Shown piece by piece: positions 1 to 33,410 of a stretch of DNA of 33,410 nucleotides (positions are counted from its first letter, which is position 1; the number at the start of each line of letters is the position of its first letter). Source of the stretch: a bacterium (GTDB taxonomy: Bacteria; Patescibacteria; JAEDAM01; Absconditabacterales; Absconditicoccaceae); NCBI GenBank assembly GCA_030528665.1, contig JAUMYK010000010.1, positions 1-33,410 on the forward strand, given 5' to 3'. The notes beneath the pieces were generated by a model. The model searched no databases, was not told where the DNA came from, and saw only the letters and a list, made by a program, of their open reading frames with translations. The position numbers and the translations under genes are program-made.

Positions 1-505
1 TGATAAATTCTCAGTTCACATATCCGATCTGTGCTGCACCAACTGGTCCATCAAATGGAATCCCAGCCGCGAGGATCGAAAGCGAAGCTCCGATAATATG
101 CATTACTCCAAGTGGCATCTCGTGATCGAGCGCAAGTGGCGTGATCGAAACGACAATATCATTGATCATTCCCTTTGGAAACATCGGTCTGAGCGCTCTA
201 TCCGTGAGTCTTGCGTTGAGAATCGCTTGATCAGAAGGTCTTCCTTCTCTTCTTCTATAGACTGCGCCCCCGATTCTCCCAGCAGCTGCAAAGCTTTCTC
301 TCATATCAATCATCAGTGGGAGAAAATCCATTCCTTCTCTAGGATTTTTCTCCATCACCGTAGAATAAAGCATTACATTTTCTCCCATCTGCATTCTGAT
401 ACTCGCATCAGCTTGGACAGCGAGTTTTCAGGTTTCAAGTGAGATTTCTTTTCCGTGCCAGTTCATCGATTGGCGAGTGGTTTCAAATTGTTTTTGTACA
501 ACCAT
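1..505 (-). CDS. pnp: Polynucleotide phosphorylase, N-terminal part (runs off window)
   Basis: PNPase is a phosphorolytic 3'-5' exoribonuclease of mRNA decay, normally a trimer of about 700 residues; 168 codons of the first RNase PH-like domain lie in the window. Recognisable stretches are ENVMLYSTVM, GRIGGAVYRRREGRPSD, RLTDRALRPMFPKG and the segment IPFDGPVGAAQIGYV, matching the PNPase pattern of gene-product assembly around the REGRPS loop. Codon 26 (ETGKLA) and a codon near the left edge (YVNGEF) are TGA and must be read as Gly. The ATG at 505 gives the usual short N-terminal extension. No clear Shine-Dalgarno sequence is present. A promoter at 675-702 implies a leader of about 160 nt, long enough for the leader autoregulation known for pnp elsewhere, though that is inference. 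Confidence 0.95.
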
Positions 506-674
506 TTTTTTGTTCGCGAAAAATAAAAGTGATCGCACTTTCTCAGCATTGTTTGCATTTAGATTAAAAGGCAATAAAAGTCTGATTTTTCTTTTTTATG
601 AACTTCTGATTTGAGTTCTCTAGTCCTTTAGTGCGTTTTAATCCATCTGCATGATGAGAAACTGCAACAGCACA

Positions 675-702
675 AGTATAGTTTTTTTTGGAGAATTTGC
701 AA
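675..702 (-). promoter_or_regulatory. Promoter of pnp
   Basis: On the minus strand TTGCAA (702-697) is followed after 16 nt by TATACT (680-675). The same pair with the same spacing occurs in front of several other genes in this window. It lies just inside the end of the upstream methyltransferase gene, so pnp appears to be uncoupled from the restriction-modification operon. Confidence 0.65.
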
Positions 703-710
703 CTGGAAGG

Positions 711-1781
711 CTAATTTTTTACAATCACATAATGTAGGTATTCAGTTACCTTATCTTTTTTGTAGGATCTGTTGTGATCTTTGTCTGCTTTAAATCTAGG
801 ATATTCTTGAGTGAAAAATCAGTATTCACCTTTTGTCTCCATAATTTCTTTAATATCCTCTAGACTCATCAATCCTTCATCATTATAACTCAGAAAAATA
901 TATTTTGCTTTGACATTTCTAATAAGTTCAGAAAATGCTCTTTTTACTGCATTTTTACTGCAATATTTAGATTTTTGATTGCTGGTATCTCTCATTCCTG
1001 TTTTTCCTTTGATTGTGGGGTAATCATATTTTGCAATTGTTTCTAAAATATGATAATTTGAACTATATTGTCTCGCATTGTAAGGAGGATCAAGATATAC
1101 TACCTCATGTTGAGTATGTTTAATCAGTTCGTTAATATCTTGATTATATACGGTATGCTCATGATGATTGAGTTGAAACTCTGCTGGAGTAAGTTTCATC
1201 GCTTTTTGAGCAGATTTTTTGAGTTTTTTGAGAAAAGCACCATATACTGAAGCAGTATTCGCAACTTTATCAATACTTTCTAGTAAGCTTGCTAAAAGGA
1301 AAAAATATTCATTTTCATTGATTTTTTTACTAGTGTACCAGTTTTCTATTTTTTCTCTGATTGCATCGCATTTTTGTGCATTTTCATCAGAAAAATAGCA
1401 TCTTTTAAATTCCTGTTCTTGAGTACCCTCCTGTGAGTAATTGCAATATATAAAGCCTTTTTTCCCTGGCAAAGCATCTAAATATTCAAGTACGATATGT
1501 TTATATGTTTCTATTGTTCCTAGTAAAAGTGCTGGGATTTCTTTTGTTAGATTTGAAAAATAAAGATCGCTATGATTGCCGATATAGTTTTTATTGAGGA
1601 CATAGCTATAATACTGAAGATCGTTAGCAATTACCTTGTGTCCCTTTGCTTTGAAATACCTGCCAACGATTCCTGTTCAGGCGAACAGATCAGAAAAAGT
1701 ATAGTTCTTATTTTTTACGATCTTTGAGATAGATTGTTCCAAAAATTCTAGGAGCGATTTTTTTGATCAAATATAGTTCAT
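711..1781 (-). CDS. D12-class DNA adenine N6-methyltransferase (modification subunit)
   Basis: 356 residues, likely methylating adenine in the recognition site of the linked endonuclease. It starts with MNYIGSKKSLLEFL (the D12-class motif X signature), has motif I FSDLFAGTGIVGRYF near residues 32-46, and the catalytic motif IV VVYLDPPYNARQYSSNYH in the middle. The C-terminal half has YIFLSYNDEGLMS and ends with a basic YKKDKVTEYLHYV segment typical of type II modification enzymes. TGA encodes Gly in YIG, FAG and GEYG; under the standard code only a 217-residue fragment is seen. It is the last gene of the operon, 53 nt after the endonuclease stop. Recognition sequence cannot be told from the sequence. 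The class assignment is firm; the pairing with the neighbouring endonuclease is inferred from position. Confidence 0.93.
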
Positions 1782-1834
1782 GATTATAAATCTAGAAATA
1801 ATGTGAATTGATATTTATAGTATTCAAAATGGTG

Positions 1835-2917
1835 TTAATTTCAAGAGATTTTTAACCTAATTGTAATGTCTCCAAATCTTTGACTACTATGTTTTCATCT
1901 CTGATGTTTGGTTTGAAAAGATACAAAAGTCTGATTTTTAAACTTAATTCATGGTTCTGTTCCATATCAGTTGGGTTTTCTAGAACGAGCAGGTAAAAAG
2001 GAAAAATCATTTAAGTTTATATTATTTAAATCTATTTCATCTAATATCGTATTTGGAAGTAATGCACCTGTTAATCTATCAACCCCTATAAGAATTGATC
2101 CATCTGAAGATCTTTCATAAAATTTTAGTTGCTTTAAGAGGTATTTTAAATTTTTTATATTAGTAATTTTACCTTTTCCCATATTATTTACTTCTGCTCC
2201 TTGTAGTCCAAGCTGTTGTATAAAGATTCTTTGTGTTAAATGTGCTATATTTTGATAGTTTGATTTGATTTGCTCAATATCTTGAGATCAAAAAAGCTCT
2301 CTTTTTAAATTGTTAAAATCTTGATCGTTTAGGTTAAAGTATCTTTTATATACTTTTTCTTGAATCAGTGGAGTTTGTCCTTCTGAAATAGCAACTTTTC
2401 AAGACTTATCTGTTTTAAGACTAAAGTTTACTTCTTCTCAAGATGTTAAAGTAATTACAATATCTCTTGCATTGCCATTTCTAAAGTCTTGTGCTGAAGA
2501 GCGAACAGACGTTACTGTTTTATTCTGAATTAAACTTATTATTTTTTCCATTGCCTTTTCTGCTCCTAGTTCTATATTTTTCTTTTCTTGAGCATAGTTT
2601 TTCTTATACTCATTATTCTTAAAAAAGATTGAATAAAGATCAATGCCAAGTTGCAGTTTTTTTATGACTTCTGTTTTATCACTGAGTTCTTGGGCAAGAT
2701 GGTAGTATTTAACTGTACAATCATATACTAATAATTCGAAGTATGTTCCTAATCCATCATGAAATATCCCTTCTATTTTTTCATAAATAGTTTTTTTCTC
2801 AGCAGGATGCCTTAAATAATTTGGAAAAATCCTTAGTATTTCTTTCAATTTCATTGTGATATTAAAGCTATTATTTGTTAGAATTTCATAAATTTGAATT
2901 TTTTCTTCTGGAGTCAT
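1835..2917 (-). CDS. Probable type II restriction endonuclease, PD-(D/E)xK-like
   Basis: 360 residues. It sits between a controller-protein gene (6 nt upstream) and a D12 methyltransferase, the standard place for a restriction endonuclease. The central segment ARDIVITLTSGEEVNFSLKT, around residues 150-170, has the spacing of a PD-(D/E)xK core: an acidic residue on one strand, then S-L-K on the next. This is followed by SEGQTPLIQEKVYKRYF. The C-terminus has FVSFQTKHQRGKHSSQRFGD, a pattern I associate with type II enzymes. Five TGA codons (for example LTSGEE, DKSGKV, LFGSQD, KPNGYG, EPGIKF) are read as glycine; without this the gene appears as two fragments. Specificity is unknown. No experimentally characterised homologue is recognised, so the function rests on context plus the core motif. 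Confidence 0.75.
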
Positions 2918-2923
2918 TACATC

Positions 2924-3130
2924 TTATTCGGAAAATAAATCTTTAACTTTTACTCACAAAGCCTTTGCTAGAATTTCAATATTTTCTAAGCAAATATTTT
3001 TTTCCCCTCTTTCAATGATGCCAATGTAGGTTCTATGTAGTTTACATTTCTCAGCAAGTTTTTCTTGAGAAAGGTGTTGTTGTTTCCTAAGTGTTCTAAT
3101 TTTTAATCAAAAGCTTTTTCTGATATTCAT
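2924..3130 (-). CDS. XRE-family controller (C) protein of the restriction-modification operon
   Basis: A 68-residue helix-turn-helix protein of the lambda-repressor type. The sequence contains LSQEKLAEKCKLHRTYIGII followed by ERGEKNICLENIEILAKAL, the classic C-protein signature. C proteins delay endonuclease expression relative to methyltransferase and bind palindromic C-boxes upstream of their own gene. Two TGA codons (FGLKIR and LGVKVK) are read as Gly; for this reason the gene is invisible under the standard code. It is followed after 6 nt by the endonuclease, consistent with co-expression. A 36-nt palindromic region directly upstream (3154-3189) is the likely operator. Confidence 0.93.
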
Positions 3131-3153
3131 TTGAAAATTATAGAAATAAAAAA

Positions 3154-3189
3154 AGTCATCATTTAATATGATGATAAATAATGATGACT
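3154..3189. promoter_or_regulatory. Candidate C-box operator for the controller protein
   Basis: AGTCATCATT (3154-3163) is exactly repeated in inverted form as AATGATGACT (3180-3189), with a further ATCAT/ATGAT pair between them, so several ATGATGA-like half-sites are stacked within 36 nt. It lies 24-59 nt upstream of the controller gene, where C-boxes are found. It could alternatively form a hairpin in the operon transcript, but no T-run follows on the minus strand. Confidence 0.65.
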
Positions 3190-3202
3190 ATAAATCTACA
3201 GA

Positions 3203-3844
3203 CTATAGGTAGTTATTTTGCTCGCTAAGTATATATTTTCATCTTTCTTTTCTTATCACTTTTTTTGTATCTAAAAAATCTCTATAAAAGATTCCTCTTA
3301 AAGTTGCTTTGGGATTTATATTATTTGGATATTTTGTTTGGATAGTATCTTTTATTTCATTGTATAGGTCATCTAACGAGAAGCTTTTATTATTTGTATT
3401 TAGTTTTCAAATTGCTTGTTCTATGAGTGAATTTCGATTTTCAAGATTGTTCTCTAGTGAGTTTCAATTTTCAGAACTGTCCGCTAAAGCAATTGCTCCA
3501 GATATTCTTTCGATAAACATCTCATTTCTTGCTATCTCTTTTATGATATTTTCATTCTCTAATAGTGTACCTATATTTTTTTCTAATCCTTTGTGGATAT
3601 GGTTTTTTACCATGTCACTAATATTCAAGTCATTAAGGTAATTTTCTATTTTATTTTTTAGAAAGATTATGATTTCTATACCAAAAAATCAAAGTGATAG
3701 CAAAATCCCTATAATGATGTAGAAGTCCTTATTTAACCCTTTTTCATTTAAAGGATAAAAAATATCAATAAATACTAGCAGTACTCCTATCCATCCTAGC
3801 ATTAAAGATAATATACTAAACTTTTTGAGTAATTTTTCTCCCAT
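3203..3844 (-). CDS. Two-TM protein with winged-helix-like C-terminus, in the restriction-modification operon
   Basis: 213 residues, function unknown. Residues about 8-30 (LSLMLGWIGVLLVFIDIF) and 41-64 (FYIIIGILLSLGFFGIEIII) are two hydrophobic segments, leaving a long soluble region. The middle is helical and charged. The last 60 residues, from SFSLDDLYNEIK through KATLRGIFYRDF to ERGKYILSE, have the layout of a winged helix: helices followed by a recognition-like helix and a short beta wing ending in YIL. Three TGA codons are read as Gly. The gene starts 3 nt after the upstream methyltransferase stop, so the two are co-transcribed, and it ends 13 nt before the candidate C-box. Its location suggests a role linked to restriction or its control; that is inference only. 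Confidence 0.8.
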
Positions 3845-3847
3845 CCT

Positions 3848-4627
3848 CTACCTCTTAAAAACTAAAATATACTCATGCTTAAAAATAAAATAATCACTGC
3901 TCAAAGCTCTATATCTCCAAATTCATCCACTTCACAACTTACCTCTATTTCCTTCCATATTTTTTATAATAATAGATTTTAATTTAAATCAAACTTCAAT
4001 TGCTTTTTGCATACACCCAAATCCTAAAGGAATCCACTCTCCATTTTGATACTTATCTCAGATAACAAGGATCATATAGCCTCATTTTTTTGTAAGTTCA
4101 AAAGTATTTTTAAGAACCTTTCAAAACTGAGTATAGAAATCTTCAACTGATTTGCAATTAGATAAATCTTCTTTTTGATCACTAAATTTTATTATATCTG
4201 CATAAGGAGGATGAAGAATTGAAAGAGAGAATCCTTCGTTTTCTTCTTTGGCTAAATAGGCTTGAATAACTTCTTTTGTTTTTTGACTGCTACTATCTCA
4301 AACAAGAAAATATTTTTTTATTTTATCTGTTATGAGTTCATTAGTTCTATCTATTAACTTTTTTTGAATATCAATTCCTATAATATTTCTCCCTAATTCT
4401 TCACATTCTATTGCTGTTGTTCCACCTCAGAGAAAAGGATCAAATACCCAATCTCCCTTTTTCGTATATCTTTGGATGAATTCATTAGGGATTTGGGGAA
4501 CAAAATTTCAATGATAAAAATTAGAGTGTTTTCCTCATTTTTTTCTTTCAGGAATAATTCGCAAACTATCCGTATTAAGAGAAATATCTTTCCATTTTTT
4601 TAGATCAAAATCGTTAAATTTTGGCAT
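3848..4627 (-). CDS. DNA methyltransferase, N4-cytosine/N6-adenine type
   Basis: 259 residues. An AdoMet-binding motif I, VFDPFLGGGTTAIECEELG, lies at about residues 60-80, and a catalytic motif IV-like LSILHPPYADIIKFSD follows near residue 130. The C-terminal part, with IGDKYQNGEWIPLGFG and GFKLKSIIIKNMEG, then HEYILVF, matches the family of DNA-modification methylases that end with this block. The catalytic tetrapeptide is HPPY rather than the usual SPPY or DPPY. TGA codes for the motif I glycine in LGGG and for several others, so under the standard code the gene cannot be seen at all. It is the first gene of the operon, behind the promoter at 4657-4684. A second methyltransferase in one operon is common in systems with asymmetric recognition sites, which is a plausible but unproven explanation here. 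Confidence 0.9.
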
Positions 4628-7206: not shown

Positions 7207-7235
7207 AAAAAAAGGAAGTCTGCATTTTACTTCCC
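7207..7235 (-). terminator. Rho-independent terminator of gpmA
   Basis: On the minus strand GGAAGT (7234-7229) pairs with ACTTCC (7219-7214) around a nine-nt loop, followed by seven T. The gpmA stop codon is inside the stem. The loop-plus-3'-arm sequence recurs at about 6639-6657 without the 5' arm. Confidence 0.75.
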
Positions 7236-7973
7236 TTTTCCTTGGTTTGCCACGGCATCCATGAGTTTTTGGATTTCCTCAGGATCTCCGAGAAAATAAT
7301 CTTTTATCAACTGCATATTCTCATCAAATTCAAAAACATAGGGCATTGCATTTGGGAGATTGAGCTTGAGGATTGCTTCATCTGACATATTTTTGAGGAC
7401 TTTGATGATGCCTCTGAGGCTATTTCCATGGGCAGAAACCAGGATTTCTCCTTCTTTTGCCACTGCAGGTAGAATCACTTCTTGCAAATAGGGTAAAGCT
7501 CTGGCAACGCAGTCTTTGAGGGATTCAGTGAGTGGCAAATCGGCTTCTGCAACTTCTGCATAACGCGGATCTTGATGTGGGGCGCGAGGATCATCCTGTG
7601 CAAGCGGAGTAGGCGGGACATCATAACTTCTTCTCCAGAGCAAAACCTGTTCATCTCCATATTTCTCTGCGGTTTCTGCTTTGTTGAGTCCTTGGAGCAT
7701 TCCGTAGTGTTTTTCGTTGAGTCTTCGTGATTTTTCTACAGGAATCCAGTCTAAGTCCATGGTATCCAAAATGCCATTTAAGGTTTTGACCGCTCTTTTG
7801 AGATAAGAGGTAAAGGCTTTTTTGAAGTGGAAGTTTTCAGCTTTCAGGAGTTTTCCAGCTTCGAGTGCTTCAGTGATCCCTTTCTCAGTTAGATCAACAT
7901 CAGTTCGCCCAGTGAATCTGTTTTCTTGGTTTCGAGTGCTTTCTCCGTGGCGGATGAGAACGAGTCTTTTCAT
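7227..7973 (-). CDS. gpmA: 2,3-bisphosphoglycerate-dependent phosphoglycerate mutase
   Basis: 248 residues, interconverts 3- and 2-phosphoglycerate in lower glycolysis. The phosphohistidine motif [19 protein letters not shown] is at the N-terminus, with [20 protein letters not shown] in the middle and the second catalytic His in [15 protein letters not shown]. Length is that of the dPGM family. No TGA codon occurs in the frame. It has its own promoter (8012-8039) and terminator. Together with the divergent pyruvate kinase at 17443 it shows that at least part of lower glycolysis is retained. Confidence 0.97.
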
Positions 7974-10362: not shown

Positions 10363-10391
10363 AGTATATTGGAAAAGATTGTAAAAGTCAA
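10363..10391 (-). promoter_or_regulatory. Promoter of the 97-aa/624-aa operon
   Basis: Minus strand TTGACT (10391-10386), 17-nt spacer, TATACT (10368-10363), 30 nt before the start at 10333. It is divergent from the CAP-protein promoter. Confidence 0.7.
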
Positions 10392-10423
10392 AAAAATCAG
10401 ATTTTTCTTTTGGTTTTGGAAAG

Positions 10424-11096: not shown

Positions 11097-11224
11097 GATA
11101 GATATGAGTTCTTATTTGCATCTATGCTCTTTGTTGTATTGGGAGGGGTTCAAGTGTCTTGATTCTCTCTTGCATTTTTTTGAGAAAATCCTATGCTCAG
11201 GGTGTTTATCTCCTCGTCTTGTGG

Positions 11225-12856
11225 ATGAAAAAGATTGGTATAGGTAAAGTGCAGTCCTGATCTTCAAGACCGCGTGCATTATGGCTCCTGCGTTTGGCGT
11301 ATGTTGGGATTTTGGTGTTGAGTTTTAGTTTTTTTGCCTTGTATGCGAGGTTGACAGGGTGGCTCTTTGCTAACAATACAATTGATATTTTTCAGGATTT
11401 GGATCAGCTTTCTTTTTTGTTTTGGGTTATTGATCCAGAGCTTTCTAAGCAACTTTTAACGCTTGATACTATTATGAAAGCGTATTGAGCAGGAGCAAAT
11501 GTTTTACAAACTCAAGAGAAGGAGATTTTTCAGCTTCGAGAGTATGCAAGATCTCACAAGCAATATTTGGTTGATAGGGGCTTTGGTAATTATGAGAGGA
11601 TTTTTGCTATGTTGGATGATGCTTGGGAGCTGAGAGATGAGATTTTGAGTTTATTGTGAAAAGAGCAGCGTTTTAATTATTTAGTCCCACTTCAAAATAG
11701 TAATGAAGCACGTCCGAATGGAGGATTTTTTGGTTCTTTTGCTTTTGTCGGGCTTTCTGGTGGTCATATTGTAGATTTGCAGGTGGTGGATTCGTATTTG
11801 CCAGACTATATCGCACCAGAGACTCGTATGCAGTTGCCTGCCTGGATGGCAGAGGTTTTGGGTAGCAATAGTGGGGATGAGAGCTGAGGGAATACTGTTG
11901 GATTTATTGCTGGAAACAAATTTGGATTTACCGATAAAGATGGAAAAAATCTGAAGCTTTTGTACGAAAAAATTTTTCATACCGAGTTTGATCCTGAGAG
12001 AAAGGAAAAGTTATTCAAAGCTGAGGAATGGGGTAGGCTTTTTCAAAAAAATATCAAAGGTGTGATTTTCCTAGATTCGGAATTGATCAGCTATCTTTTG
12101 CCTTCCTTTCGTAGTAAGGCGTGGGAGTGGCAGTTTATCAACGCAAATATCGACCTTATTAGGGGGGAAAATCGTAGCAATAAAAAAGAGCTTTATATTC
12201 AAGATTTGCAGCAGTATCTCAAGCAAAATGTTGTATGACTGGTACGTGCTGGGGTGAACAATGTGCAACATCTCTTGCATAGAGGATATGTCAATATCTA
12301 TCTGTCCAATGTTTCAGGTCAGATGTGGGATTTTTTGGATCGCTATGATCTGACTACGGTGTATGATTCAGATTTTTTGTACTTTTGGAATATCAATACT
12401 GCTTATAATAAGTCTGATGGATTTCTCAAAAAGCAGGTAGAAATTCAGAATAGTGATTGAATGGTCGTTTTGTCTACGGATTTAGATAAGCTTGATATTT
12501 CCGAGTTGCAAACGGGGAGATACAAGGTAAGTATTCATTATACTTTTGATGTGCCAAAGACTTATCAGGATGCGATGCTGGCTCTCCAAAAAAAATATCG
12601 TATCAAGATGACAGATAGAGAAAAATATATTTTGGTTTTGCAGAAACAAACTGCTGATCCCAATGCTCCTCAGCAACGATGGTCGACGAGAGAATTGATT
12701 TATCTGCCTTTTGGTTGGAGGATTGGTGAGATCAGTGGAGAGGTATCTGGGGTAAGGCGCTTTCAGACTGATTTTGCTCAGGGTTTGACTTATTTGGCTC
12801 GTGTTGAGGAGAATCCGCAGTCGCATACGGTGGTCTTTACGGTGCAGGTGCCGTAG
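11225..12856 (+). CDS. DUF4012-type envelope protein
   Basis: 543 residues. A basic N-terminus is followed by one hydrophobic segment (about residues 20-45, RLAYVGILVLSFSFFALYAR), so the bulk should be outside the membrane. The DUF4012 signature is at about residues 148-172: FNYLVPLQNSNEARPNGGFF, then GSFAFVGLSGGHIVDLQVVD. Seven or so TGA codons, including one at KAYGAG, one at LLGKEQ, ESGGN and SDGMVV, read as Gly and unite four standard-code fragments. Function is unknown; the family occurs in Gram-positives and CPR, often near polysaccharide or surface genes. The ATG at 11225 is chosen as the first in the frame with a charged N-terminus before the membrane segment; a more upstream non-ATG start cannot be excluded. 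Confidence 0.8.
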
Positions 12857-15233: not shown

Positions 15234-15944
15234 TTACTTTTCGAGTTGTGATTGAGAAGAGTCTAGGAGTGGATTATAGATTGAGAAGAGGAGTGAGATG
15301 ACCTCTTTGGTAGAGAGTTGATGTGTTTTGATCCCCATGCCTGCCAATCCTTCTTGAATCAGAGCGATCCTGGTATTGAGCATTTTTTGTCCTTTGACAA
15401 AGCTCCTGTATCTGGAGACAATCGTCTCGACATCATCCTTACTATTTAATGTCTCGATAAATTTGCTTCGTCGTGGTTTTTTGACTTGATCGGAGTCGCT
15501 TTGCTCGTAGTAGGGGATCACGACATAAAATTCTTTGATAAAGATGAGTCCTTGTCTGAGATTGATGTCTTCTAGAAAGTTGATATACTGTTGTCCCTGA
15601 TGCTTGAGTGCTCAGGGATCTAAAGCTTCTACATTAGTTGAGATATAGTTGAGATATTCTCTGAGATCCAGATAGGTATTCCTTACGAGAAACTGTAAAG
15701 GAAATTCCAGACTATTCAAAAATCTTTTGTATTGTTCTAGAATTGTTTGAATTTCATCAAAATTTTTCAAATCAAGGTTGATGCCTTCAGCTTTGAGGAT
15801 GGCTCTAATACCACCGTCTTTGAGAATGCAATATCCTTCTTTGATTTCTGAGATTGGTAGCATAGATTCAGTATTGAACTGAGATTCTTGTTTGCCTTTT
15901 TGGATTTGTTTGTTTTGTAGATTATCAAAGAGCATCTTGCTCAT
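15234..15944 (-). CDS. TraC-like protein of a CPR type IV secretion/pilus locus
   Basis: 236 residues, soluble. The segment MLPISEIKEGYCILKDGGIR, then AILKAEGINLDLKN, FLNSLEFPLQFLVRNTYLDL and FIKEFYVVIPYYEQ, is the pattern of the TraC-domain proteins that accompany VirB4-type ATPases in CPR genomes. TGA (ALDPGALKHQ) joins two standard-code fragments. The start at 15944 has a TAGGAG Shine-Dalgarno-like sequence upstream. It lies 26 nt after a VirB2-like membrane protein gene, with another before that. The VirB4 ATPase itself is not in the window. Role: probably a cytoplasmic or membrane-associated component of a secretion or pilus apparatus; the exact step is unknown. Confidence 0.82.
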
Positions 15945-15970
15945 CTCCTAAAAAAGTAAAAAGTCTGAAT

Positions 15971-16492
15971 TTATTTGGGGATTGCCTGTGATTCGTAGAT
16001 CCAGAACAGCATACTTACAATGAGCCATGCGAGTGACATTACAATGATCGCGATGGCAACACCTTTGAGGGTCGATTTGACTTTTGCCCAGCCTTTTTCT
16101 CCATCTCAAACCAGCATCATATAAAAGGCATACAGTACCAGTACAAAGGCAATAAAGCTCACAAATCCTAGTGCATAATTGAGAAGTTTTTTGATATAGT
16201 GGAGGGCTTTCTGATTGCCAGTATAGTCCGTATTCTCAAGTCAAAAAATTTGCATAATCCTTTGGAGAAGTCCATCTTCTGGTTTAACAGCATTTGTAGT
16301 AATAACATCCCCAATATTGGTAGTCTTATCTATCAAAGTATCAGGATTGGAGTTGCTGATAGATGTGCTAGGAATTTCGTAGTGGAAAGTATTTGTATTT
16401 CCTTGTGCAGAGAGGGGGCTTGCTGTGATCAGGAGGTAGCCTCATAGGAAGCTGATCGCTGTTAGGATCAGATTTTTGATTTTTTTTTGCAT
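15971..16492 (-). CDS. VirB2/TrbC-like pilin-type membrane protein (copy 2)
   Basis: 173 residues. An N-terminal signal (MQKKIKNLILTAISFLGGYL, with one Gly as TGA) is followed by a polar region and then two membrane segments near the C-terminus: YALGFVSFIAFVLVLYAFYM and GVAIAIIVMSLAWLIVSMLF, separated by a short basic loop WAKVKSTL. This is the layout of VirB2/TrbC-like subunits. It is a diverged paralogue of the gene at 16527-17039: both share the order signal, polar, TM, G-rich loop, TM. TGA is read as Gly at three places, one in LVGDGEKGW. Co-transcribed with its neighbours. Confidence 0.78.
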
Positions 16493-16526
16493 TGCTAGAG
16501 TGGTGAGACATAAAAGGGAGTTAGAG

Positions 16527-17039
16527 CTAGCTTATTTGGGATATGAGCCAAAAGATTCCGCTAATAATCATCCAGCTTACTGCGATACCGAGCAGTGCTT
16601 TGCTCACTTTTCCGAGAGCAACTTTTCCAGCATTGAATTTACTATCATCTCCTGCTGCAGTCAGCATTTGGATACCAGCTCGAATCAGGATGATGAGTGA
16701 GATCAAACTTGCGAGTCCAAGTGCGAAATTGATCAGTCTTTTGATCAGGTCGAGTACTTTATTGGTAGCTGAGGTTTGATCTGTGATAGCTTCGTTGGTG
16801 CTGATGATATTATTGATTTTGTGTCCTGAGGTATGATGGAAGATATCCAAGGTACCATCCCTCATAGCCCCTTTTTCTGAGAGAGGAGGGATAATCATTT
16901 CTCCACTCGTAGTGAGTATAGTATCTAGATGTTTATTAGGGTCTGGTAAGGGTTTTAATCCCTGATTGGCAAAAGTGGGAGAAAGGAGTACAATAGTGCT
17001 GATGATGAGGGTGGTGATGAGTACTATGATTGTTTTCAT
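16527..17039 (-). CDS. VirB2/TrbC-like pilin-type membrane protein (copy 1)
   Basis: 170 residues. MKTIIVLITTLIISTIVLLS is a signal peptide, followed by a polar spacer with many Thr/Asn, then two C-terminal membrane segments: INFALGLASLISLIILIRAG and LGIAVSWMIISGIFWLI, joined by a loop MLTAAGDDSKFNAGKVALGK. The AGDDSKFNAGK-type loop is typical for the pilin-like TrbC/VirB2 proteins common in CPR. First gene of a three-gene operon with its own promoter at 17070-17097. No TGA codons needed. Confidence 0.82.
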   Translation of the reverse strand: MKTIIVLITTLIISTIVLLSPTFANQGLKPLPDPNKHLDTILTTSGEMIIPPLSEKGAMRDGTLDIFHHTSGHKINNIISTNEAITDQTSATNKVLDLIKRLINFALGLASLISLIILIRAGIQMLTAAGDDSKFNAGKVALGKVSKALLGIAVSWMIISGIFWLISQIS

Positions 17040-18849: not shown

Positions 18850-18897
18850 AGCATAGCAATAAAGATAAAAAAGTCTGATTTTTTATTTCTTTTTATT

Positions 18898-20375: not shown

Positions 20376-20404
20376 ATTATATCCGTTTTGGGTCAAAAAG
20401 ACAA
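20376..20404 (-). promoter_or_regulatory. Promoter of the KH-domain ATPase gene
   Basis: Minus strand TTGTCT (20404-20399), 17-nt spacer, TATAAT (20381-20376), 33 nt before the start at 20343. Confidence 0.65.
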
Positions 20405-20473
20405 AAAAATCAGATTTTTTTTATGTTTTTTCCTTTTTGGTTATGAAAATGAAGACAAACGGACAGCTATATA

Positions 20474-20501: not shown

Positions 20502-20549
20502 GTGGAGAATGGGAAAAATCTTTCCAGTTTTTACCGATGTTTTGATGTG

Positions 20550-21701
20550 ATGTTTTTTCATCTTACGGGACTTAAAGATATTTCAGATAAAAACTATACG
20601 CTGGAGGTATTGATTGAGGCTGATGATATTGCGATAGTAAAAAGCTTTCTAGAAGCACAAAAAGTCATAACTTTGGGATTGGAGATCTATAAAGGAGAGG
20701 TGGATGCTTTTGGGCGTGTGTATTTTTTGGTGAAGTATCAGGAGACAGTACTCAGAATTGTTGCTAAATTTGAGGATTTGGAGGATTCTTTGAGGCATGC
20801 GATTGAACTGGGACTGGAGGTAATGGATGCCAACTATCTTGGAGCGGCTGCTCAGGATCCTGTCAAAATTCAGCAGATGATTGCTCGTATTAGAGAACAG
20901 CATGTTGAGCGTTTGGCTCAAGAGCAGGCAAGAAAAGCACAGGCTCAGCAGGATTTAAATCTTAATTTCAACGATAAGAAATTGCAGAGAGCCTATCAGG
21001 CGATTGATGATATTATCAATCAGATTGATCAGCTTTTTGAAATCGGTGGAGATCAAATCGAACCTCTGACTAGGAAAAAGCTAGATGATATGAGAGGAAA
21101 TATCAGCAAGCTCAGACTTGCTACCAATTATGATAAGATTATTGAAGAGCTGCATATTACGATGAATTTGATCGTAGCAACGCAGGATTTTTTGCTAGAA
21201 AGACTCTCTGCAGACAAGGTATTTTCTATTGCGGCTGGGAGCAAGGTATCAAATGTAGAAGTGATTAGAGAGCAGACAAGATTGGCAAAATCCAAATTGC
21301 TGTATACGCTGGGAGCGCAGCTTTCCAGAGAGGAGACAATGTATGTTTCACTTGGGTATCTCAAGTTATTGACCCAGTATTTGCATAAGGATATTAGCTT
21401 TGCTCTGGAGAATAAATTGCTTTTTTGTAGACAGCTTTTTAAGGGAATTGAGGTGCTTACGATCTTTGTATTGCTTGAATTGGTGCTGTTGGCGGTGTTT
21501 GCTCCGCTTTTGAAGATAGAGCTTTCATTACAGAGGTTTGGGATTATGTTTATGTATGTAGCGGTATTGGGAGCATTGGTAGGGGTATTTAATGCTAAGA
21601 TCAAGCCGAGTTCTGTAGCTGCGTATGGGTTTTGGACGGTGCTGATCGCTGCCTGTTATGTAGGGCTAATGTATGGAATCAAGGTGATTTTACTTTTTTA
21701 G
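20550..21701 (+). CDS. Coiled-coil membrane protein of unknown function
   Basis: 383 residues from MFFHLTGLKDI. The first 300 residues are soluble and helical, with a coiled-coil stretch around RIREQHVERLAQEQARKAQA. The C-terminus has three membrane segments: EVLTIFVLLELVLLAVFAPL, FGIMFMYVAVLGALVGVFNA and FWTVLIAACYVGLMYGIKVI. The N-terminal region, with LEVLIEADDIAIVKSFLEAQ, loosely resembles a domain acting on the cytoplasmic side. No family recognised. The start at 20550 is preferred over 20502 because of promoter position. The downstream gene begins 11 nt after its stop, so both are in one operon. No TGA in the frame. Confidence 0.78.
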   Translation: MFFHLTGLKDISDKNYTLEVLIEADDIAIVKSFLEAQKVITLGLEIYKGEVDAFGRVYFLVKYQETVLRIVAKFEDLEDSLRHAIELGLEVMDANYLGAAAQDPVKIQQMIARIREQHVERLAQEQARKAQAQQDLNLNFNDKKLQRAYQAIDDIINQIDQLFEIGGDQIEPLTRKKLDDMRGNISKLRLATNYDKIIEELHITMNLIVATQDFLLERLSADKVFSIAAGSKVSNVEVIREQTRLAKSKLLYTLGAQLSREETMYVSLGYLKLLTQYLHKDISFALENKLLFCRQLFKGIEVLTIFVLLELVLLAVFAPLLKIELSLQRFGIMFMYVAVLGALVGVFNAKIKPSSVAAYGFWTVLIAACYVGLMYGIKVILLF

Positions 21702-21712
21702 GAGGAGAAGCG

Positions 21713-23083
21713 GTGTCGTATGTGATTATTTTGTTGGTATGTTCTGTGTTCATTGCATTTTTTGCTTTGATAGATTTGTGGTATTTTTGATTGTTGCCGT
21801 TTTTTTTCTTGATCTTCTTTTTTTCTCAGGGTTTCTCTGCGATGAAAGTCAGTCTTTCTCATAGTTTTTTGACCAAGAGGTATGGGCTATATCTTTTGGC
21901 TTTGTTGGTGTTTTTTGGTTTGTTTGGGATTTTGACTTTTATGGGGATTGGTGGAGGAGCGGCATTATGGGTATTGATGTTGGTATCTGGGGGATTGCGA
22001 TGATTGTCTTATTTTCTCCCTTATGAGGATGGGAAGCATTTGTTTAAGTATGCTTTTCTCGTGCTTGGTATGCTTTTGCCGATCAATCAGGTAATGAGCT
22101 GATCAGAGGAGTCGGTGTTGCCCTTGATTGGGCAGGTGATAGGAGTATGGTTGCTGGGATTTGGAGTGATGTACTATGGGTTGAGTCAATGGGTCGTAGT
22201 GGATGAGGAGTACTATTATGGATTCTGGTTTTTGGCACTTTTGATGCTAATGTATATGGTATTTGGGATTTATGATGATGTGCTTCCTATGCTTAATCTC
22301 AATATGCTTTTGTATCTTGGGGTATTGGCAGTGCTGGTCTATGCTGATCAGAGGAAGCTCTTGCCTTTTGTCAAAAAGAGAGAGGTGTCCTTGAGAAGAG
22401 TCTTGGCAGGGGAGAGGTTGCTGGTCAAGGAAAAGTCTGATCCTTTGCAGTTTTTGAAAGTATTTTTGGAAAAGGTGAAGGTGTTGCCTGTGTTTTTGCA
22501 GTATTTGCTCGAGTATCTCAATTTGGCTCTCCTCTTGGGGGTTTTGGTCAGTTTTTTATTGCCTTTGTTTCAAGGAGAGAGGGTAAGTCAAGTCTGGTAT
22601 TGGACAGGGATGGGTTTGTTTGTGATGAATGCCTTTTTTCTCAAAAAGATGCAGATTTTTACTTTGATCTCGAGGTTTGCGGTCGCCTTGATTGTGAATT
22701 TTTCGCTCTATATTTCGCTGGTGATGGTGGGAGAGGGATTGCAGGCGATGTTGCCGTGGCTGATTGCTCGAAATATTTTGTGTGGGATTGTCGTGTTTTA
22801 TGTGAGGATGCCAGCGTTTAAAAAATATCTGAAAAAAGCTGATCTGATCTTTTGGCTTTTGACGAGTTTGGTAGCGATGTTGCTCAATATTGTATTGCTC
22901 TTGAAACTGGAGATTTCTGGTCAGTTGGTCTTCTCTTTGATTTTCTTTTATGTGGGAGTGCAGGGAATTATCACTTATTATGCGATTTTGGTAATTAGGG
23001 AGTTTGATCGTGAGTCGATTGAGAAGCAAAAGCCTGGATCATTAGATGCTTTGCTTGAACAGGAGATGTCTCCTTTTCTCTAG
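21713..23083 (+). CDS. Polytopic membrane protein of unknown function
   Basis: 456 residues with about twelve hydrophobic segments, for example YVIILLVCSVFIAFFALIDL, GLYLLALLVFFGLFGILTF and FWLLTSLVAMLLNIVLLLKL. A soluble loop of some 60 residues with VKKREVSLRRVLAGERLL lies in the middle. The GTG start at 21713 is chosen because a strong GGAGGAG Shine-Dalgarno sequence lies six nt upstream and the frame opens there. TGA is Gly at WYFGLL, GLRGLSY and MSGSEE. No transporter family signature is recognised. It overlaps in function with the preceding gene by operon position only. Confidence 0.78.
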
Positions 23084-23583: not shown

Positions 23584-24468
23584 TTATTTTTTCTCAATAA
23601 TTCTGAGTTTTGCGCTTCTGGCGGCTTTGTTGTGCTGGACTTCGGTATAGTGAGGGACGATTACCTTTTTATTGACTAGGGAAAAGTCATCTTGCTCTGC
23701 CAGTGTTTTGAACGCGTTTTTCACGATTCTATCCTCGATGCTATGATAGGTAATAATTGCACATCTTCCTCCTGAGCTGAGTGTGGCTGGGAATTCGGCG
23801 AGAAAGTGTTCGAGTTGCTCGAGTTCATTATTAACCATAATTCTGATGACTTGAAAAATGACAGCGATCTTTTTTTGGTTGCAATGATGGGCGAGGAGAA
23901 AGTCTTTGAGCTGAAAAGTGGTTGAAAAGTCTGATTTTTTTCTCTGTTCACAGATGCTTTTGCTGAGGTAGTCTGCTGCTCTTGCTGAGAAGTCTCCATA
24001 GCTCATAAGTGCATTTTGGAGTTTTTCGAGTGGGGTTTTTGCTAGTCGGTCTTTGGCAGTATGCGGGGTTTTTGTTTGATCAAATCTCATATCGAGTGGA
24101 GCATCTGTTTTGATGGAAAATCAGCGTTCCCCATCTTTGAAATGTTCGAGGTTGACTCACAAATCGAGAAGTTCAAAGTCAAAAGGTCAGTATTTTTGTG
24201 CTATTTTTTGGATATGAGCATAGGAGCTATGGAGAATCGTAATGTTTTCCTGATAGTTTTGAGTTCGTTGTTGTGCTTTGCTAATCATCGCAGTATCGAC
24301 ATCTGTTCCTATGATCTTGAGTTGGTTGATGGGTCTTTTTTGGGCTTCTTGACTGAGAAAGTATTCAGCATGTCCTCCATGTCCAAAAGTCCCATCAAAG
24401 CTGAGTGATCGATTGGTCGGAAGATGATCGTAGATTTCTTGGGCAAGGACTGGGATATGACGGAGCAT
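23584..24468 (-). CDS. rsmH: 16S rRNA (cytosine1402-N4)-methyltransferase
   Basis: 294 residues, AdoMet-dependent methylation of C1402 in the 16S rRNA P-site. Seen in order: MLRHIPVLAQEIYDHL at the start, the AdoMet loop SFDGTFGHGGHAEYFL, GTDVDTAMI, LLDLGVNLEHFKDGERGFSI then DAPLDMRFD, and the C-terminal GGRCAIITYHSIEDRIVKNA. TGA falls on conserved glycines of DLG and RGF, and on KYGPFD, making this gene one of the best proofs of the recoding. The ATG at 24468 is used because the family begins right at the HIPVL block. Promoter at 24504-24531, 36 nt upstream. Confidence 0.97.
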
Positions 24469-24503
24469 TGCTATTGATGAAGCTAAAATTGAGGTTGTTT
24501 GAG

Positions 24504-24531
24504 AGTATAGTGAAGTGGCTGGTTTTTTCAA
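24504..24531 (-). promoter_or_regulatory. Promoter of rsmH
   Basis: Minus strand TTGAAA (24531-24526), 16-nt spacer, TATACT (24509-24504). Confidence 0.65.
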
Positions 24532-25656: not shown

Positions 25657-25759
25657 GTATCTCAAAAAATACTTTGAGAAAACTATGGGAACTAAGGAAA
25701 CAAAAATCAGATTTTTTTGCTTGTTTTCTGAGAGCAAAATCATACACTTTGAAGCAAAC

Positions 25760-25799: not shown

Positions 25800-27185
25800 A
25801 TGCACAGACCACAAATTGTCGCTCCTGGTGGCTCACATCAAAAAGCGATTACCGCAGCAAAATATGGAGCTGAAGAGGTATATATGGGAGTTCCCTTTAC
25901 CTCACTGAGAATGAGAAGTAATAAGCTCGGAGATTTTGTAAAACTCAAAAGAACTGTAGATGAAGTCCACGCTTTGGGAAGTAAAGTTTTTTTAACAATG
26001 AATATTTTCCCAAAAAATGTCGACATCAAAATCTTTGAAGCAACCGTAGAAAAAGTATCAGCAATGTGAGCTGATGCGATTATCTTTTCTGATCCAGGGA
26101 CTTTTCATGTCCTCAAAAAATATATGCCCAACACTGCACTCCACCTCAGCACTCAGACCACAACACTCAACTATTCTGCAGTACAGTTTTGGCAGGATTT
26201 AGGTGTAAAAAGAGTAGTCTTAGCTCGTGAACTCCATATCGATGAAATCAAAGAAATCAAAGAAAAAGTACCAGGTATGGAGCTAGAAGTATTTGTTCAG
26301 TGAGCAATGTGTATGACTTATTCGGGTAGATGCCTACTGGGAGACTATATGGGGGGCAGACCTGGGAACAAGGGCGAATGCAATCATGCTTGCAGATTCA
26401 AATACAAGGTATGGCTTGAGGAAGAGAGAAGACCATGAAAATTTTTTCAACTGGAACAAGGAGATGATGGAACAAGTTTTATCATGTCATCTAGAGACCT
26501 TTGCACTATCAATAGACTTGCTGAAATTATTCCCTATGTAGATGCGATGAAAATCGAGGGAAGAAGCAAATCTGAATTTTATGTAGGAGGTATGGTCAAA
26601 GCTTACAAGCATGTCCGTGATGCTATCGTGGATGGAACGCCGATCGATCCAGTGATCCAAGACTTGGTCAATGTGATTCCCCATAGAGAGTACTGGGAGG
26701 GCTTCATGTTTCATAGTCTCAAAGAATTTCCAGATACTGAAAATCAAGACTACGCTTGGCAAAATGACACCACAGTAGCAACAACAGAAGCTAAAATATC
26801 AGAAAAATCTGATTCCAGTTCAGTACAGTTCGCAGACCAAGCGTGACCTCTCACGAGCGAATACTTTGCTCAGGATAGTTCAATTACCCAGACCTGTGCT
26901 GGTCCTCTCTTTGCGAGAAACTATTTTGGACAGGTGAGTGAGAACACCCTTGAACTCAATGGTCAGATTTTTCACCAATTTACTCCAAAAGAAGTGATGT
27001 ATCCTGGGATGGAACTTCTTTATCTTACCCCTACTAGTTACGGAAAACTCAAAATCCTTGCACTCGCTAATGCTCAAGGCAAACCACTAGAGAAAGCTAC
27101 TTGCAATACTCCAAATATCTATATCCATACCGATACACCACTTTTTGGAGGGGAACTTTTTTATCTTCCACCTCCTCAGCACTAA
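25800..27185 (+). CDS. Peptidase U32-family protein (tRNA hydroxylation type)
   Basis: 461 residues. The N-terminal barrel has IVAPGGSHQKAITAAKYGAE, GVPFTSLRMRSN and FLTMNIFPKN. The family signature is at VFVQGAMCMTYSGRCLLGDY, followed by NKGECNHACRFKYKV with the conserved Cys residues, and IMSSRDLCTINRLAEIIPYV, DAMKIEGRSKSEFYVGGMVK. The C-terminal extension with EVMYPGMELLYLTP is the small beta domain of the YegQ/TrhP type. Members have been linked to 5-hydroxyuridine formation in tRNA, and others are annotated as collagenase; the Cys pattern supports the tRNA-modifying branch. TGA is Gly at SAMGADA, QGAMC, RPGKFF and QAGPLT. The 189-nt leader holds a hairpin with a T-run at 25760-25780. Confidence 0.9.
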
Positions 27186-28995: not shown

Positions 28996-29355
28996 ATGAC
29001 TGAAGAAATGATTATCAGCCAAACAAAATTATTCGTGGGTTGATTGAACTGGAAGATGAGGGGAAATGACCTCAAAACTGAATTCTCAAAGTATGGAGAA
29101 GTTGTATTTGCGAGAGTAAACCTCGATCAAAACGTAAAACCTCCAAGAAGTAAGGGATTTGGTTTCGTAGAATTCCAAAATGCAGAAGATGCTGCAAAAG
29201 CTAAAGCTGAAATGGATGGACAAGAGCTTTGGGGAAGAGCTATCAAGGTAGACTTTGCCAAAGAAGATCCGGCAAGATTGGCTGCTAGAGCTGAACAGCA
29301 GGCTGCTAGAGCTGAGGCTCAGTCACAAGATGATGACGAAGATGTAGAATTTTAA
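28996..29355 (+). CDS. RRM-domain RNA-binding protein
   Basis: 119 residues with one RNA recognition motif. RNP2 is KLFVGGLNW at residues 11-19, with the second Gly encoded by TGA, and RNP1 is KGFGFVEF further on; GQELWGRAIKVDFAKEDP closes the domain. The C-terminal tail has two AARAEQQ-type repeats and an acidic end DDDEDVEF. Single-RRM proteins of this type bind single-stranded RNA and are often cold-induced in bacteria such as cyanobacteria; the role here is unknown. No Shine-Dalgarno sequence is visible. It has its own promoter and terminator. Confidence 0.95.
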
Positions 29356-29553: not shown

Positions 29554-30810
29554 TTATTTTTTTGAGTCTTTTGTCTCATCCTCTTTAATGGCTTTTTGGA
29601 TGGCAGGAGTGAGGTACTGGATAATTCCAATCGCAAGTAAAATACCTCAGCAAAGCGAAAACATCACTCAGACACTTCCGAGCATATCAGTCAAACTACC
29701 AACCAAGACAAGTCCAAGTATTGAAGGTAGGCTTGATATGGAAAAATTGATTGACATTACGCGACCGAGTTTTTCTTGCGGAACCTTGAGTTGTTGAAAG
29801 GCTTGCATTGCTGCATATTCAATCGTATTGATGATTCCTACTATTACAAGCAATCCCACAAAAAACCAAATCATATCTTGGGGCAAGAGTCCGCTGATGA
29901 TACAGATCGTACCTACCACTCCTAAAGCGAGGCTCGCAATTTTCAAGGCATGGAGTTTGGGTTTCCATACCGACAGAAGTAGACCTCCGATCATCATCCC
30001 TATCGGATAGGCAGCTTCCACCAGAGTCATCATTCCAACTCCTTTCTGAAAGTGACTCTTGGTCATCAGTGGTAAGAGAGAGATAATCGGCATCACCGCA
30101 AACATTACGACTATTGAATACAAAAAGACCCATTTTACGGGTGGAATTGACCAAATCGTTTGGAATCCTTCTTTCATTTCACTGCATACTTGTCTGATCG
30201 TGTTTGAAGTCTTGGAGGCAAGATGCTTGGGGAATGTTACAAATGTTAAAAACACAATTGCTAGTGCTGCACCAATCACATCAAGCATCAAAATGGTTCC
30301 GAGACTTTTTGGGAACATTCCTACGAGAAACCCACCAAGTGCAGGACCTGCAATGAGAGAAATAGATTGAATACCCTGATTCATCCCTGCAATACGCATA
30401 AACTCTTCCTTTGGAGCTAGTAGTGGCGTACTTGCTTGCATAGCTGGCATATGAAACGCTGATCCAACTGCACGAAGTGCCATCATGGCGTAGATAAAAT
30501 ACACATTATCAAATCCTGACATCATCGTTATTGCCATCACAAGGGTACATAATGCAATCCCTCCATCTGCTAGCATCATGGTGTATTTTTTATTCCGCCT
30601 ATCCACAAAGACCCCTGCAAAGGGTCAAAGCAGCGCCATAGGCAAAAGCCCTGCAATCGTCGCATATGCCAAGACTTCTGCAGATTCATACTGCAATGTC
30701 AAAAAGATCGTAATTGCAAAATTTACTGCTGATGAGGATAAAAGCGAAAATACCTGTCCAGACCAGATCAGTGCAAAGCTGCGTTTCCAATTTTGAGGAG
30801 TATTTGACAT
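29554..30810 (-). CDS. MFS transporter
   Basis: 418 residues with about twelve membrane segments. The start MSNTPQNWKRSFALIWSGQV and ALLGPFAGVFVDRRNKKYTM (motif A-like loop G-x-x-x-D-R-R) identify the major facilitator superfamily, close to the group of MFS exporters with GPFAGVFVDR. Further segments include ISLIAGPALGGFLVGMFPKS and QLKVPQEKLGRVMSINFSIS. The TGA codons at LLGPFA, SVGVMF and LCGGIL read as Gly. The substrate is unknown; macrolide or drug efflux is typical of this group but not shown. The ATG at 30810 is the first in frame. Confidence 0.92.
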
Positions 30811-30960
30811 CAAAATTTTATAGCGTATAAAAAGTATTCTGGTGGTGTATTGTTATTCTTCCTTGTGTGTATACCTTAGCAAGGTAGGCGTAAGCAAAAA
30901 ACAGTGCTAGAGGATAGTGATTATGATCACAGAAGCAAGCATATCTATAAAAGGAAGGAA

Positions 30961-31180: not shown

Positions 31181-31208
31181 TTGCATTTCTTTCAAAAATG
31201 AGTATACT
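31181..31208 (+). promoter_or_regulatory. Promoter of the noncoding RNA gene
   Basis: TTGCAT (31181-31186), 16-nt spacer, TATACT (31203-31208). Seven nt downstream is G31215, the first base of the long stem. Confidence 0.75.
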
Positions 31209-31214
31209 TGCTTT

Positions 31215-31381
31215 GCTTACAAACCAATATTCCATTACCTCAGCACAGTACGCCTCGCGAGGTCTTCGTTTTTTGGGAAAATGGGAAATAACACTCTTAT
31301 GTGTGGAAACCTCATTTTTCGAAAGCAAGACCTTGCTGAGGATATTGGAGTTTGTAAGCACCACATATAGGGGTGTTTTTT
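31215..31381 (+). ncRNA. Structured noncoding RNA, 6S-like
   Basis: A promoter ends seven nt before and a terminator (CACC/GGTG, six T, 31359-31381) closes the unit of about 165 nt. The transcript folds into one long rod: GCTTACAAA pairs with TTTGTAAGC, CCAATAT with ATATTGG, CCTCAGCA with TGCTGAGG and AGGTCTT with AAGACCT. A 7-nt bulge and a bulge of about 14 nt are both on the 5' side, and a terminal ACAC/GTGT hairpin caps the rod. Size, rod shape and the large asymmetric central bulge fit 6S RNA, which binds RNA polymerase holoenzyme. tmRNA, RNase P and SRP signatures are absent. The noncoding gene is well supported; the 6S identity is an inference. Confidence 0.7.
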
Positions 31382-31405
31382 CGTTGTAGAGAGCATACCG
31401 TGGTT

Positions 31406-31434
31406 TTGAGGTCATAGCACAATCATTTTATTCT
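31406..31434 (+). promoter_or_regulatory. Possible promoter of the 401-aa secreted protein gene
   Basis: TTGAGG (31406-31411), 17-nt spacer, TATTCT (31429-31434), 16 nt before the ATG. Confidence 0.4.
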
Positions 31435-31449
31435 TTTATAGACAATCAA

Positions 31450-32655: not shown

Positions 32656-32665
32656 TGTTTTAGGC

Positions 32666-32712
32666 AAAAAAAAAGAAATCTGATTCGAAACAGTCAGCTT
32701 TCTTTTTTCTTT
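32666..32712 (+). terminator. Probable terminator of the secreted protein gene
   Basis: AGAAA-T-CTGA pairs with TCAG-C-TTTCT, followed by a T-rich stretch. Confidence 0.6.
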
Positions 32713-32840
32713 TGGAGTGGAAGTCGGGAGATTGTTCCTGAGTTGAGCTACGAATAGGGAAGAGATTCAAAGAAAAAACATACGCTTGGAGCCTGTGTCT
32801 TGGAAAATATGAAGTAGAAGTTTTTGTAATGAGTGACAAA

Positions 32841-33119
32841 TTAGGCAACTAGTTTGTGGAGTTCGGAACTAATATAGGTTTGATAAGGAATGCCTAGAGC
32901 TTGAGCTTTTGCCTTGATTTTGATCAAATTCTCTTCAAATATCCTAATACTGATGGCTTTTCTTTTGTTCATTTTTTCAATGGTGTTTTTCGCATAGTGA
33001 GCATATCTTGCTTTTTCTTTGGCAATATCTTTGACCGAAGTTCGTTCTCCTTGCTCAAGTTCATTCATGATTTCTAACTCTTCTGTATCATATACAGGAT
33101 TGAATTGTTTTTTTGTCAT
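32841..33119 (-). CDS. Ribbon-helix-helix (CopG/BrnA-like) antitoxin-type protein
   Basis: 92 residues. The N-terminal half (MTKKQFNPVYDTEELEIMNE) is acidic and would be the toxin-binding part; the C-terminal half, NKRKAISIRIFEENLIKIKA then ALGIPYQTYISSELHKL, is a ribbon-helix-helix DNA-binding domain: a beta strand with alternating residues and two helices with G-x-x-Y-Q-T at the turn. This is the layout of the BrnA antitoxin. A fragment resembling the end of the partner toxin lies directly upstream (33132-33251), in the order toxin-antitoxin. No TGA codons occur. Confidence 0.82.
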   Translation of the reverse strand: MTKKQFNPVYDTEELEIMNELEQGERTSVKDIAKEKARYAHYAKNTIEKMNKRKAISIRIFEENLIKIKAKAQALGIPYQTYISSELHKLVA

Positions 33120-33131
33120 TGCGATGGTTTA

Positions 33132-33251
33132 TTACAGATTAAATTGTTTATTGTATCTTCTCTCATATCGTGCGGTTTTGAGGAATATTTTTTCTTCATT
33201 CTCTACAAAAGGCACACAGCAAGTATAACCATTGAGAATAAAAAGCAAAAT
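33132..33251 (-). pseudogene. Remnant of a BrnT-like toxin gene
   Basis: A frame ending TAA at 33132 reads ILNGYTCCVPFVENEEKIFL then KTARYERRYNKQFNL. The order NGY-x-CVPFVE, IFLKT-x-x-x-x-RR is reminiscent of the C-terminal part of small toxins linked to ribbon-helix-helix antitoxins. No good ATG start or N-terminal half is seen; upstream the frame runs into non-coding-looking sequence and then the tRNA. It ends 13 nt before the antitoxin-type gene. Truncation is an inference; an unusual non-ATG start cannot be ruled out. Confidence 0.45.
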
Positions 33252-33355
33252 GCAAGAGAAAAGTGGTTTTTTTGATTGGGGGAATCAATGAGAAAAGCCA
33301 TATAGTATTTTGTAAACTACATGGCTCTATGATAATAGTTGTCAACTTTTCAGTC

Positions 33356-33410
33356 TGGGAGGGGTGGGATTCGAACCCACGACCTTATCCTTAAGGTAGG
33401 GGGCTTTTTT
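33356..33410 (-). tRNA. tRNA, 3' part (class II, long variable arm; Leu or Ser)
   Basis: The T arm GTGGG-TTCGAAT-CCCAC (33380-33364) is followed by CCCTCCC as the 3' acceptor strand and A as discriminator (33356). CCA is not encoded. Before the T arm, CCTT and AAGG form a hairpin that fits a long variable arm, so the tRNA would be of the leucine or serine class; the A discriminator favours leucine. The anticodon lies outside the window or at its edge. Confidence 0.85.

Follow-up and report, generated by a model that had tools for sequence, protein, structure and literature searches.

The question raised by contig JAUMYK010000010.1, a bacterial stretch of 33,410 nucleotides that was analysed here at its full length (hereafter the window), is how its genes read the codons UGA, CGA and CGG. 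An initial annotation had taken UGA to mean glycine throughout and had named the system as NCBI genetic code 25. According to our analysis, three codons differ from the standard code, namely UGA, which stands for glycine, and CGA and CGG, which stand for tryptophan, with UAA and UAG as the only stops; we give this reading a probability of roughly 0.92. The glycine meaning of UGA is confirmed, and the tryptophan meaning of CGA and CGG is very probably a second change, already published for Absconditabacteria. The label of code 25 holds for UGA but fails for CGA and CGG, which behave as Trp and are Arg in that code. Homology within the window itself shows the meanings of UGA and CGA, while that of CGG, represented there by one codon, would follow from relatives, in which CGG is found on Trp columns.

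The 34 genes considered were chosen under code 25, with TGA as Gly, and cover 88% of the window. They hold 84 in-frame TGA codons spread over 27 genes, well in keeping with the at least twenty genes initially reported, and no in-frame TAA or TAG. One gene runs off the window and the other 33 end in TAA (22) or TAG (11); the earlier remark that TGA never closes a gene is correct as a description, but it is built into the choice of code-25 frames, and the independent evidence is the placement of TGA. Across positions 1..33410 the chosen genes contain 30 CGA, 1 CGG and 93 TGG codons, or 31 CGA and 1 CGG per 10,000 codons. These counts include three codons that are probably situated before the true start of their gene, namely the CGA at codon 14 of PNPase, the CGA at codon 12 of the gene at 20502 and a TGG counted as the first codon at 11222.

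Codon meanings were scored by a column test, in which tblastn served to align the window's genes, masked with X at TGA, CGA and CGG, to loci from relatives. All 20 residues were scored on counts from unambiguous relative codons, leaving out the relatives' own TGA, CGA and CGG and dropping 36 near-duplicates. The controls all came out right, TGG being returned as Trp, AGR/CGY as Arg, GGN as Gly and TGY as Cys (R, purine; Y, pyrimidine; N, any base).

In regard to CGA and CGG, the strongest competitor is code 25 taken exactly, with UGA as Gly and both CGA and CGG remaining Arg, the code with which an SR1 genome has been annotated (PMC4463531). Over 12 columns and 146 comparisons, Trp was the best residue at +25.5 bits, followed by Ile at -5.8, whereas Arg stood at -22.1. 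Relatives carried at least one TGG at 8 of the 12 CGA/CGG columns, compared to 2 of 195 AGR/CGY columns (Fisher p 3e-10), and at least one AGR/CGY at 1 of the 12, compared to 139 of the 195 true Arg columns (Fisher p 2e-5). Conversely, the window's own TGG codons met TGG 132 times, CGA 95 times, CGG 24 times and AGR/CGY never in 362 comparisons with relatives, duplicates kept. The phosphoglycerate mutase has three CGA codons (14, 23 and 83), and each of them aligns with Trp in the solved structures 1e58, 3lnt and 3ezn, whose alignments were those shown out of 46 PDB matches; this placement had been expected beforehand, the expectation being recorded together with the test. Reading CGA as Trp instead of Arg raises the scores of the mutase from 347.1 to 367.7 bits (TIGR01258), from 377.9 to 396.9 bits (NF010713) and from 124.5 to 127.6 bits (Pfam His_Phos_1), and smaller gains with CGA/CGG as Trp are seen for RsmH (3.3 bits, TIGR00006), MFS_1 (1.5), Mef(En2) (4.9) and GNAT ArsN2 (0.8). 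Likewise, CGA codon 162 of RsmH corresponds to Trp in 3tka and to TGG in 6 relatives. In the DUF4012 gene, 5 relatives have TGG (2), CGA (2) and Lys (1) at CGA codon 486 (12677-12679, with the count starting at 11222), and CGA codon 106 is matched by Leu (3), CGA (1) and CGG (1).

Several observations weigh against the tryptophan reading and have to be set beside this evidence. Only 12 of the 31 CGA/CGG codons entered the column test, much of the Trp weight comes from the mutase gene, and some of the mutase rows are distant paralogues with other residues at those columns. The single CGG of the window is compared to one relative, which has CGA. At RsmH codon 89, the sole tested CGA column with Arg in relatives, these show Phe (8), Arg (5), Lys (3) and no Trp, and the solved structure 1m6y has Lys. 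Furthermore, Trp lowers the score of thymidine kinase (Pfam 142.1 to 140.5, NF003300 267.7 to 267.2 bits), HXXEE (42.6 to 42.0), Mef(C) (296.5 to 296.3) and Mef(A) (215.9 to 215.2). The Arg and Lys at RsmH codon 89 and the very slightly better scores of thymidine kinase and HXXEE are what unaltered code 25 has in its favour, but the column scores, the scarcity of AGR/CGY at the CGA/CGG columns and the mutase stand against it, and we consider it improbable.

For UGA, the column test placed Gly first of the 20 residues at +41.2 bits, with Asn next at -9.6 (32 columns, 174 comparisons), which bears out, by the alignment of homologues, the assignment made from motifs. The TGA codons indeed fall on Gly in the motifs singled out at first, namely in DPFLGGGTT of the 3848 gene (codon 67), in DLFAGTG of the 711 gene (codon 35), and at RsmH codons 125 and 137, RRM codon 16 and U32 codon 168. 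Of the 10 TGA columns that could be read in the PDB alignments, of which three were shown for each protein, 8 are occupied by Gly in a solved homologue (RsmH 115, 125 and 137; PNPase 49 and 188; the 3848 methylase 67, 182 and 190), the other two being codons 40 (Ile) and 169 (Asp) of the 3848 methylase; a PDB sequence search with the D12 methylase of the 711 gene gave no match. Code 4, in which UGA is Trp, could draw on the many public proteins of the group that were apparently so translated, since 19 of 24 U32 rows carry W at one or more window-Gly columns. However, those database Ws sit on Gly columns, Trp scored -58.0 bits in the column test, and W in place of G lowered the main Pfam score of all seven compared proteins by 3 to 22 bits (G/W: RsmH 238.0/225.8; U32 255.3/242.7; N6_N4_Mtase, PF01555, 93.7/71.9; MethyltransfD12 168.4/154.4; RNase_PH 66.9/62.1; RRM_1 66.0/62.6; HXXEE 42.6/39.4), which leaves code 4, as already judged from the motifs, with hardly any chance of being right. 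A reading of UGA as a stop, with pseudogenes or sequence errors to account for the interrupted frames, is equally far-fetched, for although code 11 does break many genes, as first stated, and leaves no open reading frame of at least 60 codons for those at 3848 and 2924, the 84 TGA codons stand on Gly-type columns without a single in-frame TAA or TAG and alternate with GGN in relatives (GGN 104 and TGA 70 of 221 comparisons).

The reading with UGA as Gly and CGA/CGG as Trp would be carried out by tRNAs that can be seen in relatives. No tRNA genes were found within the window, nor Rfam matches up to an expectation value (E) of 0.1, and the machinery of its genome is therefore deduced from relatives. 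In three of them (G006, G028 and G002), tRNA identity was read by the rules of Shulgina and Eddy (PMC8629427). A tRNA(UCA), called selenocysteine by ARAGORN, is present in all three with a glycine acceptor end (G1:C72, C2:G71, G3:C70, U73). It is also found in genome G011. The 35 tRNAs read in G009 do not include it, and they likewise lack Arg(UCU) and Tyr(GUA), which lie next to it in G006. Trp-like features (A1:U72, G73, no A20) mark tRNA(CCG) in all three relatives; tRNA(UCG), found in G006 and G002, has G73 and lacks A20, with 1:72 being G:U in the former and G:C in the latter, and the Arg tRNAs with anticodons GCG, UCU and CCU have A20 and A73. Somewhat unfavourably, the 33 tRNAs detected in the draft genome G028 include neither tRNA(UCG) nor tRNA-Trp(CCA). 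The model of release factor 2 (RF2), TIGR00020, was passed at its cut-off by none of 49 genomes of the order and by 10 of 14 control genomes; the matches below the cut-off in 46 of the 49 are probably RF1. In the mechanism that these data suggest, UGA would be decoded by the tRNA(UCA) with its glycine-type acceptor end, with the loss of RF2 as a further aid, and CGA and CGG by the tRNAs UCG and CCG through their tryptophan identity elements, which would leave Arg to AGA/AGG and CGU/CGC. This presumes that charging follows the identity elements and that the genome of the window resembles those of its relatives in its tRNAs and in the lack of RF2.

The exchange of CGA and CGG with TGG is also seen in the wider order. 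In compared stretches of G011, G009 and G006 they swap with TGG and rarely with AGR/CGY: CGA of G011 meets CGG 51, CGA 37, TGG 32 and AGR/CGY 3 times in 171 comparisons with G009, and CGG meets CGG 6, TGG 3, CGA 2, AGR/CGY 1 and Ser 1 time in 13. A survey of valS, which covered the 30 genomes out of 49 that had loci, placed 176 of 217 CGA codons on columns where Trp (TGG) is commonest in the others, compared to Lys at 3 and Arg at 0. Genome G026 departs from this, as one of the 6 CGA codons of its valS falls on Trp, compared to two on Lys, one on Leu and one on Thr, and CGA may carry another or a mixed meaning there. CGA and CGG together outnumber TGG in valS of 10 of the 30 genomes. In G011 and G009 every Trp codon of this gene but one is CGA or CGG, UGG being nearly abandoned there, and the ratios of CGR to TGG in mechanically called open reading frames are 527:502 in G011, 524:345 in G009 and 304:964 in G006. 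A reassignment of UGG in G011 and G009 was ruled out, as the single valS TGG of each lies on a Trp column and tRNA-Trp(CCA) was found in both. A causal link between the two reassignments, in which misreading of UGG by tRNA-Gly(UCA) would drive Trp to CGR, was not supported either: in G011, 131 of 184 CGR and 80 of 107 TGG codons fall on TGG/CGA/CGG columns of G009 (p=0.59), and over the 30 valS genes the number of TGA codons and the CGR share showed a weak negative correlation (rho -0.34, p=0.06), phylogeny not being corrected for.

The lineage was approached through the U32 protein, which shares 85% of its residues with P0001 and 78% with P0004, a protein named candidate division SR1. A further match with the same 78%, P0005, is named Gracilibacteria, and this fits less well. 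In the tree of this one gene, built with P0005 not included, the window groups with P0001 and P0003, then with P0004 (support 99/96) and then with loci L003, L004 and L007 (100/99). L003 and L007 belong to genomes G003 and G006, both among the 49 of the order of RAAC1_SR1_1 (G004). As part of the best explanation, the window would be a chromosomal piece of an uncultured bacterium of the Absconditabacteria (SR1) type. The name of P0005 and the departure of G026 in valS slightly lower our confidence in the reading as a whole.

A separate matter is the restriction-modification cassette at 711-4627, which consists of a D12 methylase, a putative nuclease, a controller, an uncharacterised protein and an N6/N4 methylase. 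Its genes differ from the other chosen genes in GC content (28.5% vs 40.0%) and in the share of TGA among Gly codons (26 of 81 vs 58 of 501, Fisher p 9e-6). Locus L030 of genome G012 holds the methylase, the controller and the putative nuclease in the same order, at 61, 66 and 53% identity, and 17 aligned cassette TGA codons correspond there to TGA (10), GGN (3) and other residues (4); nothing corresponding to the 3203..3844 gene separates the methylase from the controller at this locus. Among the first 20 genomes of the order searched with the methylase, G012 alone gave a whole-length match near 60%, and three gave weaker ones.

The gene at 1835-2917 is a putative endonuclease, a name taken from its place in the cassette only. 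It matched no family in Pfam (E<=0.001), NCBIfam or PADLOC (E<=0.01), its sole match at E<=0.5 being DUF7249 at 17.5 bits, under the cut-off of 27. Its AlphaFold model, with a mean predicted local distance difference test (pLDDT) score of 88.3, gave no PDB fold match at E<=0.001, and no match was found in the plasmid collection. About 5.8 billion proteins yielded 41 homologues, of which three are named, from Absconditabacteria, Gracilibacteria and Acidobacteriota (the last at about 35%). At TGA codons 323 and 341, Gly is present in each of the distant rows P0164, P0166 and P0167; two of the three have it at codon 173, and one at each of codons 160 and 210. Of the 18 aligned homologues, 13 carry W at window-Gly columns, a pattern typical of sources that read UGA as Gly but were translated by code 4. 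The first TGA lies at codon 31 in the methylase, 8 in the controller and 160 in the nuclease, and owing to such in-frame TGA in three genes full-length proteins would be made only in cells with UGA as Gly. It is tempting, if doubtful, to regard the part at 1835-4627 as a "code-locked" defence module circulating among UGA=Gly bacteria, with a nuclease family that, judged from its homologues, would be almost confined to them. A literature search limited to the combination of restriction-modification, alternative genetic code and Gracilibacteria found nothing that joins the three.

Table 1. Coordinates of the window's features and the position of their reassigned codons.
Feature	Coordinates	Strand	Codons and remarks
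PNPase, cut by the window end	2..574	-	TGA codons 49, 188 on Gly columns
D12-class DNA adenine methylase	711..1781	-	3 TGA
Putative restriction endonuclease, named by position	1835..2917	-	7 TGA; 41 homologues found
Controller, Cro/C1-type helix-turn-helix (HTH) protein	2924..3130	-	2 TGA; invisible under code 11
Uncharacterised protein in cassette	3203..3844	-	4 TGA
Type II N6/N4 DNA methylase of cassette	3848..4627	-	10 TGA; PF01555
2,3-bisphosphoglycerate-dependent phosphoglycerate mutase	7227..7973	-	CGA 14 (7934-7932), 23 (7907-7905), 83 (7727-7725) on Trp columns
DUF4012 protein	11225..12856	+	6 TGA; Pfam scan used frame from 11159
Gene without Pfam match	21632..23083	+	CGA codon 380 matched by TGG in all 3 relatives
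RsmH	23584..24531	-	TGA codons 115, 125, 137 (Gly); CGA codons 41, 89, 162
U32 family protein	25800..27185	+	TGA 90, 168, 213 mostly Gly codons in relatives; 349 in variable column
RRM protein	28996..29355	+	TGA codon 16
MFS transporter	29554..30813	-	3 TGA; window's only CGG, codon 73 (30597-30595), CGA in single relative

Beyond these features, a small protein at 32841-33119 matches CopG_antitoxin, and three adjacent genes at 15234-17039 without a Pfam match recall, by eye, a type IV secretion or pilus cluster. A AAAARTCWGATTTTT-like motif recurs at 567-601, 10383-10417, 18860-18894, 20396-20430 and 25693-25727, mostly between genes, and could perhaps represent terminators or regulatory sites.

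The double change matters for annotation, as under code 25 the Trp of CGA/CGG in this group becomes Arg and under code 4 the Gly of TGA becomes Trp, and searches, alignments and expression constructs based on such proteins are wrong at conserved residues. Among public U32 rows, R stands at the window's Trp codon 299 in 18 of 24. P0001, P0127 and other U32 and nuclease rows show W at window-Gly and R at window-Trp columns, as code 4 and codes 11/25, respectively, would give. Given relatives, a contig of 33 kb that lacks tRNA genes is enough for the column test.

In comparison with known codes, the window shares with NCBI code 4 a UGA that is a sense codon, but with the meaning Gly instead of Trp. 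With NCBI code 25 (SR1 and Gracilibacteria) it has UGA as Gly in common, while CGA and CGG, Arg in code 25, behave as Trp. The code of Absconditabacteria has a table of its own, which we take to be NCBI table 37. The closest system is the one inferred for Absconditabacteria by Shulgina and Eddy in 2021 (UGA as Gly, CGA and CGG as Trp; PMC8629427), and a double code in Absconditabacterales is also described in PMC13092985 (2026). Against these two papers, no difference was seen for the window: UGA as Gly and CGA as Trp are shared with the former, CGG as Trp is compatible, and the tRNA types of the relatives agree. Its usage of CGA (31) and CGG (1) per 10,000 codons lies within the ranges given there (below 37, and below 7 in all but one species), which count Pfam-aligned codons, the window's values being counted in chosen genes. 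Set beside the summary in PMC8629427 of six Absconditabacteria species, the takeover by CGR appears more advanced in the wider order; since that paper already reports one species with CGA and CGG approaching UGG, the order-wide result is an extension of degree. The window would be a further member of an already published double-code group, for which "code 25" should read UGA as Gly together with CGA and CGG as Trp.

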